A stretch of 64,000 nt of DNA, from positions 1-64,000 of the forward strand of contig JAMKCH010012727.1 in NCBI GenBank assembly GCA_023653785.1, written 5' to 3'. The notes beneath the pieces are model-generated. The model did no database searches. It was not told the origin of the DNA and saw only the letters and a list, made by a program, of their open reading frames with translations. Below are positions 8,466 to 63,310 of the stretch, in pieces; within the stretch, counting starts at the first letter, position 1, and each line of letters begins with the position of its first letter. Both the position numbers and the translations under genes were made by a program. This DNA comes from Ophioderma brevispina. Its lineage: Eukaryota; Echinodermata; Ophiuroidea; Amphilepidida; Ophiodermatidae.

Positions 8466-9660
8466 ACGGTCATATAAGACACGACCGTCAACGTTGCCTT
8501 TCCAGAGGTCTATACTTTGGAAAAATTTTTTTTATTACGCTCTCATATGTCAGTGTATGGAGCACTTTTAAAAATTCCAAGATTAAATCCCACCTGAACA
8601 AATAGCAATGGTTTTATATATCAAGGCCTCATGGCCGAAACATGTTGTGCTTTTATAGGGCTTACGGTTGTCCTCCATATCTCTTCGGAGTTCGAACAAT
8701 TTATCTTACAACAACCGACTCAGCCACCTTTTAAAACTATCCCCATCATTCATCAAACTTTATTCATAAGAAACAAAAGTAAGTACATAAAAACCAGGAC
8801 ACGCGTTGGGTAATCCCACTCAGCAGGGTGAATTACATCCAAAACGGAACAAACGACAAATAGCACAATTATAGTAGAACTAAGCATATATAGATAAAGT
8901 TTAACGCATAAATTGGGTTTGAGGCGGCTGCAGACCAGGAGAAAATGAATGCGGCTAATAACGATAGGCAATGATACCAGAGCGCCACTAGATTTGATAT
9001 ACTGGGCATTCAATCCACTGGGGCTCGTGTCTGCAGTTTCACAAAGCATAACTACAAAGCAAACGTTTTTGGCACCGAATCTTAAAAAAGGAATTCGGGG
9101 CCGCTCTAGCTATACAAATGTAAAATGGTTTTTAATCTGGTCTTGTTGTCTTTGGTAATGAGCCCCTAGAACCAATCTCGACACAAACCAAGTTTAGTGT
9201 GTAAGCCGCTAGATCAAATCAGCTATGGGGAGCTATATCTGTCATTTCGAGGGAGCATCATTAATGTTCATTTCGAACGGAATTGGACCGAAATGCGCTT
9301 CCCAACCTCGTCCACGATCACAAGATCGGGACGTTGGCTCCCGGTGGTGAGAATATTAGGTGGAATAGTACCTCCCCCAATAACCCAGCAAGAAATATCA
9401 GCATAGATATTAATCCCAGGGATGGCACTTTGGGCAATTAATCGGAGCTTGCTCTGATTGTGGAACAGATTGAGTTGTGCCCGCCAGGTGAACGTCCTTG
9501 ATTAGGCGTAGGACATTATATTGAGGAAGTGTATGGAGAGTCTTTGGTTGAACACAGTTTACAGGCGGTTTTGGTTCTGTACCCCAACGTCGTTAAAACT
9601 TATGAAGGGGAGGAAGTCTAAGCTTGACCTAACGCCACAGCTAAGGACCCCTTGGAAGGT
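8466..9660. other. Interval with possible PLE-related termini, otherwise unassigned
   Basis: The phrase AAGGCCTCATGGCCGAAACA near 8622 resembles the kind of short palindromic motif found near Penelope-like element ends, but I cannot assign it firmly. The remainder has no recognisable domain. It sits between (TA)n tracts. Confidence 0.25.
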
Positions 9661-9678
9661 CAAACAAATATATAATAT

Positions 9679-9712
<34 letters not shown>

Positions 9713-9814
9713 TCAAGTCTAGAATAATAACGAACCAAAGTACAATCAGCAAAGTTCTAGATACCCATTGGTAGGAGTCTGCAAATTTTATTAAGATGCG
9801 AAACTTGTTTCTTC

Positions 9815-9866
9815 TTTTACGATACTCCGTAGTTTCACGTGTAGGTACACGATCATCAGGCGAATT
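9815..9866 (-). ncRNA. Hammerhead-ribozyme-like motif, - strand
   Basis: Read on the - strand, CTGATGA (9859-9853) is followed by T, a perfect 5-bp stem II CGTGT/ACACG with loop ACCT, T, then GAAA (9836-9833), a very short stem III (CT/AG) and a TA cleavage position. This is the order and core of a type I hammerhead with minimal stem III. Stem I is imperfect by eye. Such ribozymes are known from the pseudo-LTRs of Penelope-like elements, and PLE sequence in the same orientation follows at 10030-10506. Confidence 0.5.
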
Positions 9867-10029
9867 ATGCACGAATAAATACCAACAATAACAAAGAACA
9901 AGAGCGTGTCATGGGTTCGGTAGCAAGCTGTGCGCTATGAAGCGTATCAGCTTTCCCACCCCTCCCTTATAGGCGCGTACGTGCGGGATAAAAGAAAAGC
10001 GCGTGAAATAAAGTAGTGAGTATACACGC

Positions 10030-10506
10030 TATGTTTCTTTTCAACTTCCACATTACGTATTTAGACAACTCGGTTTTTTTATACTTTTGTGCTTGAAAAG
10101 TTCTTCTGGTTTGCGTATCTTTCCTTAAAAGTCCCTCCAGGTATTCCACCAATATGACCTGTTTGAGTCAGTTGTGTTTGTATTGTTGCTTTGCATTACA
10201 CTATGTAGTGGCTGACATCCCCCATCAGGGGGCACTCCTCTTTTTTACGGCAGTTACACGATGGGGTGTTTATCCTGTGTTTTTGTCTATTATACGGGAA
10301 TTGTGTGATTTAATGTGTGGTCATGTTCCGTGTACACACCTATAGCTCATTTTGACAGTATCTTATGATATTTGGAAGTTTGTTGATCACCGTGGGAAGT
10401 GTTTGGCTACTGTTTAAGGAATTTACCCCGACGTTTGTTTGTACGTTTTTGTTGAAACGGGGGGTTGAACCATGTCACTTTTCTAGTCGATTTTTCTTTT
10501 TGTCCT
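10030..10506 (-). mobile_element. Inverted segment of PLE copy A
   Basis: The - strand of this segment aligns with the + strand of 12426-12920: both encode the end of the reverse transcriptase domain region, a CNCR-type cysteine motif, YIG-type residues and ELSKYVW. The inversion breakpoint at 10506/10507 is where the same copy continues in + orientation with the next part of the protein. The result is a 5'-inverted, truncated PLE insertion. The coding sequence is frameshifted. Confidence 0.75.
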
Positions 10507-10787
10507 GAATTCAATCATATGGAATCCATACGTAAATCCAACACTAACAAAAGGCAATCAGGCCAGTGTAACCTCTGTTTAGAGGAGAAATCGAAATCCT
10601 AACTCGCAAAGACCACGGTGTTATAAACAGGCCTCAGGAAGTGATAGACTCCTACAAGGTCGTCATACAACAAGGTGCCCAATCGTGCGAAAAAGAAAGC
10701 GTCATCAAAATAACTTGCATCATTTTGCCTGATGATCGCCGGTAATTTGTTTTTTCGGACGTGAAACTAAGAGTAGCAAATTACTCG
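10507..10787 (+). mobile_element. 3' part of PLE copy A (GIY-YIG C-terminus and 3' end)
   Basis: This segment aligns directly with 12937-13200. It encodes SGQCNLCLEEK, typical of the C-terminal part of the GIY-YIG endonuclease region in Penelope-like elements, then continues through the shared block GCGAAAAAGAAAGCGTCATC to the hammerhead-like motif at 10723-10781. Frameshifts and stops show it is not translatable. Confidence 0.75.
10723..10781 (+). ncRNA. Hammerhead-ribozyme-like motif of PLE
   Basis: The order is a stem I 5' strand TTTGC, CTGATGA (10729-10735), stem II (CG and CCG at 10737-10741 pairing with CGG and CG at 10756-10761 around one bulged A), GAAA (10763-10766), a 2-bp stem III CT/AG with loop AAG, the cleavage triplet GTA (10773-10775) and the stem I 3' strand GCAAA (10776-10780). 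All core hammerhead positions are present. Predicted cleavage would fall after 10775. Position at the junction between two PLE copies matches the known use of hammerheads in PLE pseudo-LTRs. Confidence 0.65.
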
Positions 10788-10929
10788 ATATAACTTAGTG
10801 GTATTTTTACACTATGCTCTGACGTAGACATAGCCGTATACGAGCACTTTTTTGGACGGGTTGATAGTATATCAATTGTACTATTGCTCCCGCTACCGGT
10901 AGAGCACTCCATCACACTAGCCAAAGGAC

Positions 10930-13140
10930 TTTAGCACTAACAGGAACTACTTTCATATGAACTATTCAGGATAAAAACATCCAGACCCTTCGCACCAGGG
11001 AGTATCTGAGACGTGCTGGAGAAGGTGGAAAAGCGTAATAAAGAATGCGGTGGAAGGCGTATTTCTACCTCAGTAAAAACAGGATGCAGAGGATAACAGC
11101 AGGATAGTGACGACCGATAGCAAGGGACACTGTGGTTTCAAATCCAAGCGTTCACCACCACAACATCGAAGAGATGGCAGAGTTTGAGAAAGACCTCCTC
11201 GACATGGTAGAAGCCATTGGAAATATCAGGACAAACGACACACGTTCCAGTCTCAACTCAAGATGATGTAAGTAAAAAAAACTCCCAGACAAAGTCTTGG
11301 TGAAAGCGGCACAAACCAAGAAACGTAACCAAAATGGAATTCAAAAGACTACGGACAAGATCATCAACGATAACATAAACAGAAGTACAAACTGGCGAGA
11401 TGAAAAAACATCAATGAAATAGACACTGAATGCACGAACATCTCGAAAAACTAGGCATATCAGATAGAAATTGACAGAACAACCGAAAGTCGTGCGTTCG
11501 TCACGTTGAAAGATCACAAAGACGATTTCGAAGGGAACCCTAAATGCAGGCTAATCAACCCCACCAAAAGTGAACTGGGTAAAGTTAAGCAAAACAATGC
11601 TGGATAGAATCAACACCGATATAAGATCCAAAAAAAAAATTAAAAGGTTAAATCAGTGGGCAAAAACGGCCTTCATGCACTAGAATGGTTCAAACAATCT
11701 AAAGGAAAAACCAACAATCGAGCTTTATTATGTTCGAACATGTCGGAACTACTACCCCTCGATACCGGAAAAAATACTCAACAAAGATTTAAATGGGCCA
11801 GGCCAGTTCACGCATATATCAAAAACGGAGAAAAGAAACAATAATGATTCCAGGAAAACTTTCTTACTCGACAACCCAAGTAAAACAGAGGTTAAGAAAA
11901 GAAACATCGTGGGGCATTTGATGTAGCTATGGGAGCACACGACGGTGCTGAAGTGTGCGAGTTAGTCGGACTATAATCATAAACGACTTCAAATAAACTC
12001 CAAAATGCAGTATGGTCTCTACAGAGATGACGGGCTGGCACCATGAGAAATAGTTCTGGTAGCCAGGCGACCGGTTTTTTTTTTGGCATTCAGAAAGCCA
12101 AATAACACAAATCTTTAAAATCATGGGGTTGAAATAACTGTACAAAAACTAACTTGACATAGTCAATTCCTTGGATGCAAAACTAGACCTTACCACAGGC
12201 ACACACAAGCATATCACTAAACCCAACGACACACCAATGTACATTCAAACCCAATCCCAACCACCCACCCAAAATATTAAAAACACATACCCGAATCAGT
12301 AGGAAAAAGAATAAGCACATTATCGTCGAGCGAAGTATTTTCAAGGCAGCAGCTCCCAGGTATAATGAAGCCTTAAAATCAAGCGGTTTTTCCGACACCA
12401 TAGCATACTCTAAAAAATCAACTGGAAAGGACAAAAAGAAAAAAAAAACGAACTAGAAAAGTGACCATGGTTTCAACACCCCCCGTTCAACAAAACGTTA
12501 AAAACAAAACGTCGGGGGTTAAATTCCTTAAAACTAGTAGCCAAAAACACTTCCCACGGAGCCCAAACTTCACAAAATATTCAATAAGGATACTGTCAAA
12601 ATGAGCTATAGTTGTACACGGAACATGAAACAACCACCATTAAATCACACAATTCCGTATAATAAGCACACAAAACACACAGGAGAAGAAACAACACAAA
12701 TCGTGTAACTGCCGTAAAAAGGAGTGCCCCTGAGGGGGAATGTCAAGACACTAGCATGTGTACAAAGCAACAATACAAACACAAATGACTCAAACAGGTA
12801 ATATATTGGAAAAACTGGAGGAGACTTTTAAGGACAAGATACGCAAACCACCAAGATCTTCAAGCACAAAAAGTATGAAAAGAAAAACGAGTTGTCAAAT
12901 ACGTCTGGGAGTTGAAAAAGAAATAAACACTGACTTTTCAATCACATGGGACATCATACGTAGATCCAAAACCCAAAACACAAGGCATCTCAGGCCAGTG
13001 TAAACCTTGTTTAGAGGAGAAAATCGAAATCCGACCTCGCAAAGACCAAGGTGTTGATAAACCGGAGAAGTGACGTACTCTCCAAGTGTCGTCATAACAA
13101 CAAGGTGCCCAATTCGTGCGAAAAAGAAAGCGTCATCAAA
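10930..13140 (+). pseudogene. Penelope-like element (PLE) reverse transcriptase / GIY-YIG endonuclease, frameshifted
   Basis: Read across frames, the segment carries an N-terminal region with EEMAEFEKDLLDM (near 11170), LKDH (near 11510), an RT core with NYYPSI (11748-11765), the catalytic YRDDG (12020-12034), the cysteine motif CNCRKK (near 12706), a YIGKTGG of the GIY-YIG nuclease (12802-12822) and ELSKYVWEL near 12890. The order and spacing fit the single-protein layout of Penelope-like elements, in which RT copies the RNA and GIY-YIG nicks the target. Many frameshifts and stops (for example one extra T after GGDF near 12830) disable it. The upstream region from 10788 probably holds its 5' leader. 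The neighbouring copy A at 10030-10787 forms a partial tandem with it, which is common in this class. Length is near that expected for a complete PLE. Confidence 0.85.
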
Positions 13141-13200
13141 ATAACTTACATCAGTTGCCTGTATGTGTCCGGTAATGCGGAGTGGAAAACGGCAGAGGAG
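13141..13200 (+). ncRNA. Degenerate hammerhead-like remnant at PLE copy B 3' end
   Basis: This aligns with the motif at 10723-10781. CTGATGA has become CTGTATG (13159), a TCCG/CGGA stem II with loop GTAATG remains, followed by GGAAAAC. The core is broken, so self-cleavage is not expected. Confidence 0.4.
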
Positions 13201-13224
13201 CCAAAGAAGGGAGAAAGAGTGGGA

Positions 13225-13235
13225 GAGGGGGACTG

Positions 13236-13298
<63 letters not shown>

Positions 13299-13360
13299 CA
13301 GAGAGATAGAGAGAGAGAGTAGAGAGAAAGAGAGCAGAGAGAGAGAGAGAGATAGAGGAG

Positions 13361-13401
<41 letters not shown>

Positions 13402-13445
13402 TATATATTACTTATATATATATTATATATATATATATATATATA
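13225..13445. repeat. (GA)n microsatellite followed by (TA)n
   Basis: GA dinucleotides with small interruptions run from about 13227 to 13400, then TA repeats run to 13445. The 155-residue open frame across 13051-13518 is a read-through of PLE remains and this repeat. Confidence 0.9.
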
Positions 13446-13653
13446 CCACGTAAGAAATGATACTGACCGAATTGATGTGAATTTTGTTGATAGAAATATA
13501 ACATTTCTTAAGATATAAAATTATCGTTGAGTTGTCCGTATCACATTCGAGAACAAAAAAACGAATGATGATCGTCTGAGTGAGGGCGGCAACTACGTGA
13601 CGTTACAAGGCGGTGAACACTAGTGATGTAGAAACTCGAATAGAACCCTTCAA

Positions 13654-13726
13654 GTTGTGATGGCGCAATTGGTTAGCGCACTCTAGTACTGACAGACAGG
13701 TTGTGGGTTCGAGTCCCATTCACAGC
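13654..13726 (+). repeat. tRNA-like module, unit 1
   Basis: The 73-nt module folds as a near cloverleaf: acceptor GTTGTGA with TCACAGC (one G-T pair), D-stem GCGC/GCGC around AATTGGTTA, and T-arm GTGGG-TTCGAGT-CCCAT. A- and B-box promoter elements are intact. The 22 nt between position 26 and the T-stem have the correct length and a T at position 33 followed by ACT, but the anticodon stem makes only three central pairs. This favours a tRNA-derived repeat over a working tRNA gene. Confidence 0.65.
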
Positions 13727-13983
13727 AAGTTCCTTTTACGATAGTTAGCTACGCCCGCTTTGTTATCAATTTCTTTCGCCTATACATTATTTCTATAACA
13801 AAATTCACATCAGATTCGTGTCAACTTATCATTTCTTACGTATATATAATTAATTTGAGTTGTCCGTATCACATTCGAGAAAAAAAAAACCCGAATGATA
13901 ATCGTCTGAGTGAGGGCGGCAACTACGTGACGTTACAAGGCGGTGGAGACACTAGTGAGGTAGAATAGAATAGAACCCATCAA

Positions 13984-14055
13984 GTGTGATGGCGCAATTG
14001 GTTAGCGCACTCTAGTACTGACAGACAGGTTGTGGGTTCGAGTCCCATTCACAGA
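13984..14055 (+). repeat. tRNA-like module, unit 2
   Basis: Same as unit 1 except that one T of the acceptor strand is lost (AAGTGTGATGG) and the 3' end reads CACAGAAA instead of CACAGCAA, weakening the acceptor stem. Confidence 0.6.
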
Positions 14056-14313
14056 AAGTTCCTTTTACGATAGTTAGCTACGCCCGCTTTGTTATCAATT
14101 TCTTTCGCCTATACATTATTTCTATAACAAAATTCACATCAGATTCGTGTCAACTTATCATTTCTTACGTATATATAATTAATTTGAGTTGTCCGTATCA
14201 CATTCGAGAAAAAAAAAACCCGAATGATAATCGTCTGAGTGAGGGCGGCAACTACGTGACGTTACAAGGCGGTGGGAACATAGTGATGTAGAAACTAGAA
14301 TAGAACCCATCAA

Positions 14314-14385
14314 GTGTGATGGCGCAATTGGTTAGCGCACTCTAGTACTGACAGACAGGTTGTGGGTTCGAGTCCCATTCACAGC
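14314..14385 (+). repeat. tRNA-like module, unit 3
   Basis: It shares the acceptor-strand T deletion of unit 2 but keeps the CACAGCAA end, suggesting that units 2 and 3 arose from each other by local duplication. Confidence 0.6.
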
Positions 14386-14642
14386 AAGTTCCTTTTACGA
14401 TAGTTAGCTACGCCCGCTTTGTTATCAATTTCTTTCGCCTATACATTATTTCTATAACAAAATTCACATCAGATTCGTGTCAACTTATCATTTCTTACGT
14501 ATATATAATTAATTTGAGTTGTCCGTATCACATTCGAGAAAAAAAAAAACGAATGATGATTTTCTGAGTGAGGGCGGCAACTACGTGACGTTACAAGGCG
14601 GTGGAACACTAGTGATGTAGAAACTAGAATAGAACCCATCAA

Positions 14643-14715
14643 GTTGTGATGGCGCAATTGGTTAGCGCACTCTAGTACTGACAGACAGGTTGTGGGTTCG
14701 AGTCCCATTCACAGC
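14643..14715 (+). repeat. tRNA-like module, unit 4
   Basis: It is full length, with the acceptor pairing and both pol III boxes as in unit 1. Confidence 0.6.
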
Positions 14716-14969
14716 AAGTTCCTTTTACGATAGTTAGCTACGCCCGCTTTGTTATTAAGTTCTTTCGCCTATACATTATTTCTATAACAAAATTCACATC
14801 AGATTCGTGTCAACTTATCATTTCTTACGTATATATAATTAATTTGAGTTGTCCGTATCACATGCGAGAAAAAAAACGAATGATGATCTTCTGAGTGAGG
14901 GCGGCAACTACGTGACGTTACAAGGCGGTGGAACACTAGTGATGTAGAAACTAGAATAGAACCCATCAA

Positions 14970-15032
14970 GTTGTGATGGCGCAATTGGTTAGCGCACTCC
15001 GAGAGTTTGTGGGTTCGATTCCCATTCACAGC
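14970..15032 (+). repeat. tRNA-like module, unit 5 (anticodon arm shortened)
   Basis: The anticodon arm is reduced to CTCCGAGAGTT, about 10 nt shorter than in the other units, while acceptor, D-arm and T-arm remain. It cannot form a normal tRNA. Confidence 0.6.
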
Positions 15033-15047
15033 AAGTTCCTTTTACGA
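15033..15047. repeat. Target-site duplication, left copy
   Basis: AAGTTCCTTTTACGA occurs here and again at 22781-22795, exactly flanking the LINE. The sequence is part of the tandem unit just after the tRNA-like module. Confidence 0.9.
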
Positions 15048-41666: not shown

Positions 41667-42000
41667 ATAACTACTTCACATATTAACCTCAATACAAATA
41701 ACGAGTAGGTCTCCTTACTTTGGATGTAACGATTTTACCACAAAGAGCCAATTGAAGTCCCACCTGTCCCACATCACCGTTCAGCTGGCCAGATAGCAAA
41801 ATAGTGTCATTCCAAGGTACGCATTGAAGGTCTCAATTGATCTTACGCGGGGAATTGTATAGCATGTGGCATTGAGGGACTCTAATATGAATGGCTCTAC
41901 TCGAGCATTACATGCTGAATAGCGTTTCGGTTGACATTTAGTCCCGCTTTTTAAAATCTTAGAATACAGTGACATTTTGTGAGATACACTATATAATCCA
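41667..42000. repeat. 334-bp direct repeat, copy 1
   Basis: Appears identical to 42204-42537 (offset 537 bp), from ATAACTACTTCACATATT to CACTATATAATCCA. A 19-A run follows directly. The identical 64-codon frames on the - strand in both copies reflect the duplication and show no domain. Confidence 0.9.
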
Positions 42001-42019: not shown

Positions 42020-42172
42020 GGGATATAATTGCATACTTGGAGGCATTAATAAAGTAATATATGGATAAGCGGGGCCACTGTGAGCACTCGCGCTAAAGCG
42101 CTCGTGCTCACAGTGGCCCCGCTAATGCATATGTTAATTTATTAATGCCTCCAAGCATACAATTATATCCCC
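42020..42172. mobile_element. 153-bp foldback / hairpin element
   Basis: The left arm GGGATATAATTGCATACTTG is matched by CAAGCATACAATTATATCCC at the right end. Further in, GGAGGCATTAATAAA matches TTTATTAATGCCTCC and GCGGGGCCACTGTGAGCAC matches GTGCTCACAGTGGCCCCGC, with the centre at CGCTAAAGCG (about 42091-42100). It is preceded by a 19-A run and sits between the 334-bp repeats. Confidence 0.85.
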
Positions 42173-62739: not shown

Positions 62740-63310
62740 GTGTTTAGTTGTCCACAGACAATAATATCCGTTACCATTGCCAGGGGACCATAGTATCAGG
62801 GTAGTTGTCCACTGGACATTATACCAGATACCATGTCCAAGGGACAATTCATACCCAGTGTTAGTTGTCCAATGGACATTCATGGTCAGATGCCATGGTC
62901 CAAGGGACAATGATATCCAGTGTTAGTTGTCCACTGACCATTAATATCCATTATCATGGCCCAGGGGACCATTTACCCAGTGTTAGTTGTCCACTGGACG
63001 TAAGTATCAGATATCATGTCCAATGGACCCTGTACCTCAGTGTTAGTTGTCCACTTGACATTATATAGATACCATGGTCCCCGGGGACTATGTACCCAGT
63101 TGTGGTATTTCGACTGGACTTTTACTGTAGCATCAATCGTGGTCCATGGACCATGCTACCCAGTGTTAGTTGTCCACTGGACATTAATATCCGATATCAA
63201 TGGTCCAATGGACATGAAAACCAGTGTCATTTTTGTCCCACATGACAGTAAATTCAGATACCATGGACCAGGGGACCATGATACAGTTTGGAAAGTCCAC
63301 TGGACATTAA
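62740..63310. repeat. Satellite of about 61-bp units with two palindromes each
   Basis: About nine units begin TAGTTGTCCACTGGACATTA-like (62741, 62801, 62861, 62923, 62983, 63043 and on). Each carries a first palindrome around GTCCACTGGAC and a second around CCATGGTCCAGGGGACCATG, and most end CCCAGTGT. Units are diverged, but the palindromes are often kept. Open frames on the + strand across 62865-63315 are repeat translations. Confidence 0.85.

Follow-up and report, generated by a model that had tools for sequence, protein, structure and literature searches.

Does the point at which two copies of a Penelope-like element (PLE) meet in the genome of the brittle star Ophioderma brevispina carry a genuine hammerhead ribozyme, and how does such a ribozyme stand to the ends of the element that bears it? 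In the window (the whole 64,000-nt stretch of DNA that was analysed), a preliminary description made from the letters had proposed a hammerhead at such a junction. Every piece it named was found at its coordinates and in canonical order when the letters were checked (Table 1), and the window letters supply the core elements CUGANGA, GAA, A15.1-U16.1 and H17. The helices turned out somewhat differently: stem II, counted before as 5 bp, comprises 4 bp with a bulged A and a flanking U.U mismatch (10736/10762), and stem III, counted as 2 bp, allows 3 bp (ACT/AGT) closed by a 3-nt AAG loop. Stem I (TTTGC/GCAAA) is present as described, but in the family it is longer (~10714-10789), and its outer half has decayed in the window copy. 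Shuffled sequences fold at least as well as the window copy (-7.2 kcal/mol, z +1.0), for which a ribozyme fold scores -0.6 against an optimum of -7.0 for that piece, and the case for a hammerhead therefore rests on its homologues.

With positions 10500-10900 as the query, a DNA search of the genome (2.51 Gb in 65,844 contigs) returned at least 43 matches, the other copies being 71-88% identical to the window region. We aligned 27-28 hammerhead segments from 30 loci, the window's two included and five duplicates and six partial matches left out, and obtained for this family (F1) the majority form CTTGCATCATTTGC CTGATGA T CGTCCG GTAATT CGGACG T GAAACT CAG AGTA GCAAATAATGCAAT. This is a clean type I hammerhead, with a 12-bp stem I (one mismatch), a 6-bp stem II, a 3-bp stem III and the GUA triplet. 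One copy, L003, is identical to the majority form and has a folding energy of -25.2 kcal/mol (z -4.87; 0/200 shuffles as good). This best fold pairs the core CUGA with the stem III loop UCAG; the ribozyme fold of L003 stands at -19.2. Exact CTGATGA, GAAACT and AGT[ACT]GCAA are retained in 19, 21 and 20 of the 28 F1 segments, respectively. Relative to this consensus, one stem II base is missing from the window copy, which explains the bulged A noted before, its loop II is enlarged, and the outer half of stem I is gone. Three helices around the core, with the open end in stem I, are seen at the family level, stem III being invariant; stems I and II are damaged in the window copy, which is decayed and most likely inactive. 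Pair counts within F1 were not above those of shuffles, a result that fits neutral decay after insertion and lends no support to pairing either. Model R1 scored 61.7 bits at the window F1 hammerhead (10714..10789), a score that is not independent because the window copy is in its training set.

A covariance-model search, put forward in the preliminary description as a check, gave no Rfam hammerhead match above threshold for the window hammerhead. None was present in the whole window at the gathering score, in 9500-13600 or 10700-10800 up to E 10, or in 9750-9900. Better-kept sisters were missed as well (eight sister-copy loci, together with the isolated L003 and L039 pieces), and the failure on the window copy is therefore uninformative; the Rfam library used passes over a set of PLE hammerheads that have U.U at the stem II base.

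A genome-wide pattern drawn from the two window motifs, CTGATGATCGN{4,24}CGTGAAACTN{2,8}AGTA, matched 67 times on the forward and 68 times on the reverse strand (135 in all, a few places being counted twice owing to the variable gap), compared to 0+0 for the reversed control. The matches listed are sorted by stem II into F1 (CGTCCG/CGGACG), F2 (CGTGT/ACACG) and F3 (CGC/GCG), the last being the most frequent among them; the window's minus-strand motif at 9859 belongs to F2. We then compared base pairs across 42 distinct copies (12 F1, five F2 plus one irregular F2, and 24 F3). Compensatory differences between families, in which the commonest pairs differ on both sides, occur at pairs 1, 3 and 5 of stem I and pairs 3, 4 and 5 of stem II, all positions left free by the pattern that fetched F2 and F3. 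The core letters, the U.U and stem III of F2 and F3 provide no independent evidence, since the same pattern demanded them. Of the 24 F3 copies, some of them truncated at stem I, 13-19 keep any given stem I pair, and in F2, stem I pairs 4 and 6 hold in 0/5; single F2 and F3 copies favour a non-ribozyme fold (-1.7 v -5.9 and -3.9 v -6.5). Among places fetched by similarity alone, U.U replaces the standard pair at 10.1/11.1 in 15/18 F1 and 8/10 F2 places. We regard it as a variant rather than a ground for exclusion, given that the axolotl hammerhead HHR_Amex2 is described with U.U at its helix II base in the available text of PMC7229834.

The sequence upstream of the F1 hammerhead identifies its carrier. 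The endonuclease piece of F1 has six relatives, the best of which is named at its source as a 'predicted GIY-YIG superfamily endonuclease' and is 62% identical over half of the piece. Pfam GIY-YIG gave no match on this relative or on the F1 pieces, and NCBIfam and PDB gave nothing telling. The RT piece, a reverse transcriptase of the PLE type, has 26 relatives; one (P0021) matched RVT_1 at E 3.8e-6 with 27.2 bits, just below the cut-off of 29.6. The F1 RT piece itself returned no Pfam, NCBIfam or PDB match, and presumably contains PLE motifs. A PLE protein match (E 0.01 or better, in either orientation) was seen at 19 of the 30 pattern-fetched loci, and both tandem and inverted copies with pseudo-LTRs (pLTRs) were found. 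The endonuclease relative ends in ..SKCRHDKRPVSRVKKK (..RVKKK), F1 in ..SKCRHNNKVPNRAKKKASSK-stop, with the stop 1 nt before stem I in well-kept copies. An ORF running through the hammerhead was ruled out, as the endonuclease frame closes with this TAA and the relative ends at approximately the same place. In agreement with the preliminary description, the hammerhead of F1 copies sits at a tandem junction, between the upstream stop codon and the 5' region of the next copy. Hammerheads in PLEs are on record, as far as the available text of the sources goes (PMC6155905; PMC11167929), and the window motif is a decayed member of this known kind.

The first description of the surrounding insertion was right but incomplete: a truncated copy does meet a longer one, and an inverted left arm lies besides (Table 1). 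Our reading of these pieces is of a composite arranged head-to-head, its two 3' ends pointing outward, in which the left arm (F1/F2 join at 10034/10035) may perhaps reflect a template switch from F2 to F1 RNA.

Table 1. Features of the composite PLE insertion and of its F1 hammerhead (window positions; for the F1 hammerhead core, predicted cleavage is after 10775).
Feature	Position	Strand	Basis
TA repeat, left edge of composite	9668..9712	.	window letters
F2 3' region adjoining inverted F1 piece, TA repeats at end	9668..10034	-	78% to L054
Second hammerhead motif, F2	9823..9859	-	core pattern; R1 21.5 bits, E 0.0091
Inverted F1 ORF fragment, head-to-head with plus-strand arm	10035..10506	-	84.6% identity to L033
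F1 ORF 3' end (endonuclease C-terminus), 5'-truncated upstream copy	10510..10713	+	sequence comparison
F1 hammerhead over its full family length, both outer stem I strands included	10714..10789	+	copy alignment and model R1
TTTGC	10724-10728	+	window letters
CTGATGA	10729-10735	+	window letters
F1 hammerhead core to H17	10729..10775	+	pattern match and core letters
GAAA	10763-10766	+	window letters
GTA	ending 10775	+	window letters
GCAAA	10776-10780	+	window letters
Second tandem F1 copy: 5' region, decayed ORF, second-hammerhead remnant from ~13145	10790..13176	+	sequence comparison
Tail hairpin region past hammerhead, decayed copy	10816..10847	+	L001:1817-1848
TA repeat, right edge, after GA repeat at ~13205-13400	13401..13445	.	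window letters

Searching with the F2 3' region gave 46 genome matches. Within 6 kb, neighbouring copies of F1 and F2 are arranged as 15 head-to-head, 0 tail-to-tail and eight same-orientation pairs (seven, 0 and three in F1; eight, 0 and five in F2, two of the latter five having gaps of 10-15 bases and possibly being one split copy). According to the accessible part of PMC11167929, the anole PLE can, in vitro, nick each of the two strands and extend it, and such two-strand activity could give rise to head-to-head pairs. Five F3 head-to-head palindromes (L040, L045, L058, L065 and L068, each near 1490) have their junctions at stem I, which places two hammerheads of opposite orientation a few bases apart; in L068, 70-nt arms are 100% complementary and 3 nt apart. 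In the F2 pairs L069 and L070, ~10-20 nt separate the junction from the core downstream. Direct-tandem F2 copies were also noted, with a spacing of ~2.9 kb (G000:C13383, 6121-12232).

Several other repeats were noted in the window. At 13502-15047 lies a tandem array of 4.7 copies of a 330-bp unit with tRNA-like stretches, in which Rfam finds five tRNA matches and ARAGORN calls four tRNA-Ser (anticodon act); the unit resembles, by eye, the 3' flank of L012 and may therefore be a tRNA-derived SINE-like repeat. An inverted repeat at 42020-42171 (75-nt arms, 89% complementary, 2 nt apart) is enclosed by 300-nt direct repeats at 41667 and 42204 that are 100% alike, and ~60-nt units in which TTGTCCACTGGAC recurs form a tandem array at 62745-63214.

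Two origins other than a PLE hammerhead were weighed. The window motif on its own might resemble a hammerhead by chance, which would suit the missing Rfam match and the weak fold of this copy, yet copies at 71-88% identity carry a better-kept form, the pattern returned 135 matches versus 0 for its control, and the three families show compensatory differences; this leaves chance as barely credible, and the motif is confirmed as genuine. Hardly more probable, at very long odds, is that the motif stems from a retrozyme (a non-autonomous 170-400 bp tandem repeat with a hammerhead) rather than from a PLE. Retrozymes co-occur with PLEs in metazoans and include one axolotl family with U.U at the base of helix II, as far as the text available of PMC7229834 describes them, and the 330-bp array lies nearby. 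Against this origin, the F1 motif follows PLE endonuclease/RT sequence, as do the motifs at F2 and F3 loci, and the 330-bp array has tRNA matches and no hammerhead match.

What becomes of the elements past the hammerhead is seen from their genomic 3' ends, which in the three families cluster into a short class, ~22-45 nt beyond the cleavage site, and a long one, at ~75-115 nt; these positions, taken from local alignments, are uncertain by several bases and by more in TA-rich flanks. For F1 (27 segments), eight ends lie at ~25-45 nt, eight at ~91-115 nt, eight segments run into the next copy and three are unplaced (L010, L024, L030:1654), the ends being mostly at TA-rich DNA. The 24 F3 segments comprise 11 at ~22-40 (with L046, L055 and L064 placed by eye), seven at ~75-100, three that run on, two unplaced, and L062 at +1. 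Five of the six F2 segments end at ~84-103 and one at 76, and short F2 ends appear in the match table, where 12/46 rows stop at query 253-258, corresponding to +35 to +40. L062 (1495-1533, C9382) is a ~39-nt solo hammerhead beside tRNA-like sequence, ending 1 nt past the cleavage site, and is the sole placed copy to stop there. Since nearly all placed 3' ends lie past the cleavage site, the RNA that was reverse transcribed was, as a rule, uncut at its 3' hammerhead. The two classes suggest a constant spacing between the hammerhead and the sites where PLE reverse transcription starts.

Between the two classes of ends, F1-F3 share a stem-loop with a CTC/GAG lower stem, a bulge of 2 nt (TC or TT) and a variable upper stem. 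This tail hairpin begins at ~+34 to +47 in F1 (16/28 copies), ~+37 to +52 in F2 (11/17 places, retained on inspection out of 46 rows so labelled), and in F3 at ~+34 to +47 (13/32 places, fetched by a loose pattern and including a few that are not F3). In copies that lack it, the 3' end mostly falls before the hairpin position. Taking one example per family, 20, 51 and 14 of 2000 letter shuffles were equally stable for F1, F2 and F3, respectively. Pairs were counted by script, and two of the eight differ on both sides between families (in the order F1/F2/F3, pair 6 is A-U/A-U/G-C and pair 8 is U-A/C-G/U-A), with gaps in that pair 1 is unpaired in F2 (0/10) and pair 6 holds in no more than 5/10 F2 and 6/12 F3 copies. 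These cross-family differences lend moderate support to a shared hairpin; the 5' arms failed to line up in a MAFFT cross-family alignment of the region.

The two ends of a head-to-head insertion tend to be unlike. One long arm (with the hairpin region) and one short arm were seen in 16 of the 17 head-to-head pairs with both ends resolved, an asymmetry first noticed in the same pairs that were counted rather than in a fresh sample. From sequence, 13/14 pairs are long/short (L069, L070, L073, L074; L036, L034, L009; L039, L040, L045, L058, L065, L068), the exception, L020, being short + short, and the F2 match table adds 3/3 (C59349, C17322, C2417). Ten of the 13 pairs came directly from the script, L070, L040 and L039 were classed by reading, and C11757, C26987, C13370, C50511, C36763 and L056 were left out of the count.

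Taken together, we consider that the window probably holds a decayed minimal type I hammerhead of PLE family F1 at a tandem junction, with two classes of 3' ends spaced comparably downstream of the hammerhead, and we put the probability of this reading at roughly 0.86. Lying after one copy's stop codon and ahead of the following copy's 5' region, the F1 hammerhead would act on tandem transcripts: the RNA of relatives still in working order would form a three-way junction and be cut after GUA, and this cut would part tandem transcripts into units. The genomic 3' ends would mark the RT start sites, in two classes that flank a hairpin of common architecture. The deleted stem II base and the lost outer stem I would leave the window copy out of this process.

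It is also conceivable, though we think it rather unlikely, that PLEs retain the hammerhead chiefly to serve the start of reverse transcription, as a structural landmark or a fold assisted by protein, and not to cut tandem RNA. This would agree with the similar spacing of the two 3'-end classes in F1, F2 and F3, although the sequences there differ, and with the one-architecture hairpin between them, as well as with the anole PLE, in which, as described in the part of PMC11167929 available, insertion continues when the hammerhead is mutated and cleavage depends on protein. The same spacing could, on the other hand, be a functionless legacy of common ancestry, the conserved catalytic letters in F1 suggest selection for catalysis, and the ends were read from local alignments, partly by eye in TA-rich flanks. 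A more elaborate and slightly more doubtful proposal is a two-part RNA landmark, in which the hammerhead is followed after ~34-52 nt by the bulged hairpin, RT starts just before or just after the hairpin, and a two-strand insertion uses one start of each kind, as if by an asymmetric dimer; the hammerhead would then anchor initiation, with cutting secondary. What most merits follow-up is how hammerhead, hairpin and 3' ends are spaced relative to one another. This geometry bears on the open question of why PLEs so often carry a hammerhead, and the dozens of insertions in three families with similar geometry form a natural set that is directly testable.

Neither the constant spacing nor a hairpin common to the families was met in the available portions of PMC6155905, PMC11167929, PMC7229834 and PMC3846280 or in literature listings, and both may still be published. 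The minimal type I hammerheads of PLEs were reported by Cervera and De la Pena in 2014, a set available here by description only, via portions of PMC6155905 and PMC7229834. The present hammerheads resemble that set in their position at the tandem junctions of PLE repeats, their type I order, minimal stem III and core letters, and may differ from it in the U.U at 10.1/11.1 of F1 and F2, in being missed by Rfam, and, for F1, in lying 1 nt after the ORF stop. The axolotl retrozyme HHR_Amex2 shares the U.U at the helix II base and a short stem III, but is, in the text available, a non-autonomous 350-bp tandem repeat and not an ORF-bearing PLE (PMC7229834). In the Penelope elements of Adineta vaga, the accessible text describes a predominance of head-to-head inverted pLTRs, junction palindromes and an optional tail on one inverted pLTR (PMC3846280), all reminiscent of the arrangement here; the word hammerhead is absent from that paper, whereas several F3 and F2 junctions here lie at or near stem I. 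Closest in geometry is PAc, the Poseidon-type PLE of Anolis carolinensis, whose hammerhead lies by two internal RT starts and a stem loop in the part of PMC11167929 available. Its ORF starts at stem II, and no such start was seen in the present elements; its cleavage was shown to be protein-dependent (PMC11167929). With RT starting 111-118 nt into the ORF and the cut falling 26 nt into it, as given in the same available text, PAc would by arithmetic begin reverse transcription 85-92 nt past the cut, close to the long ends observed here.
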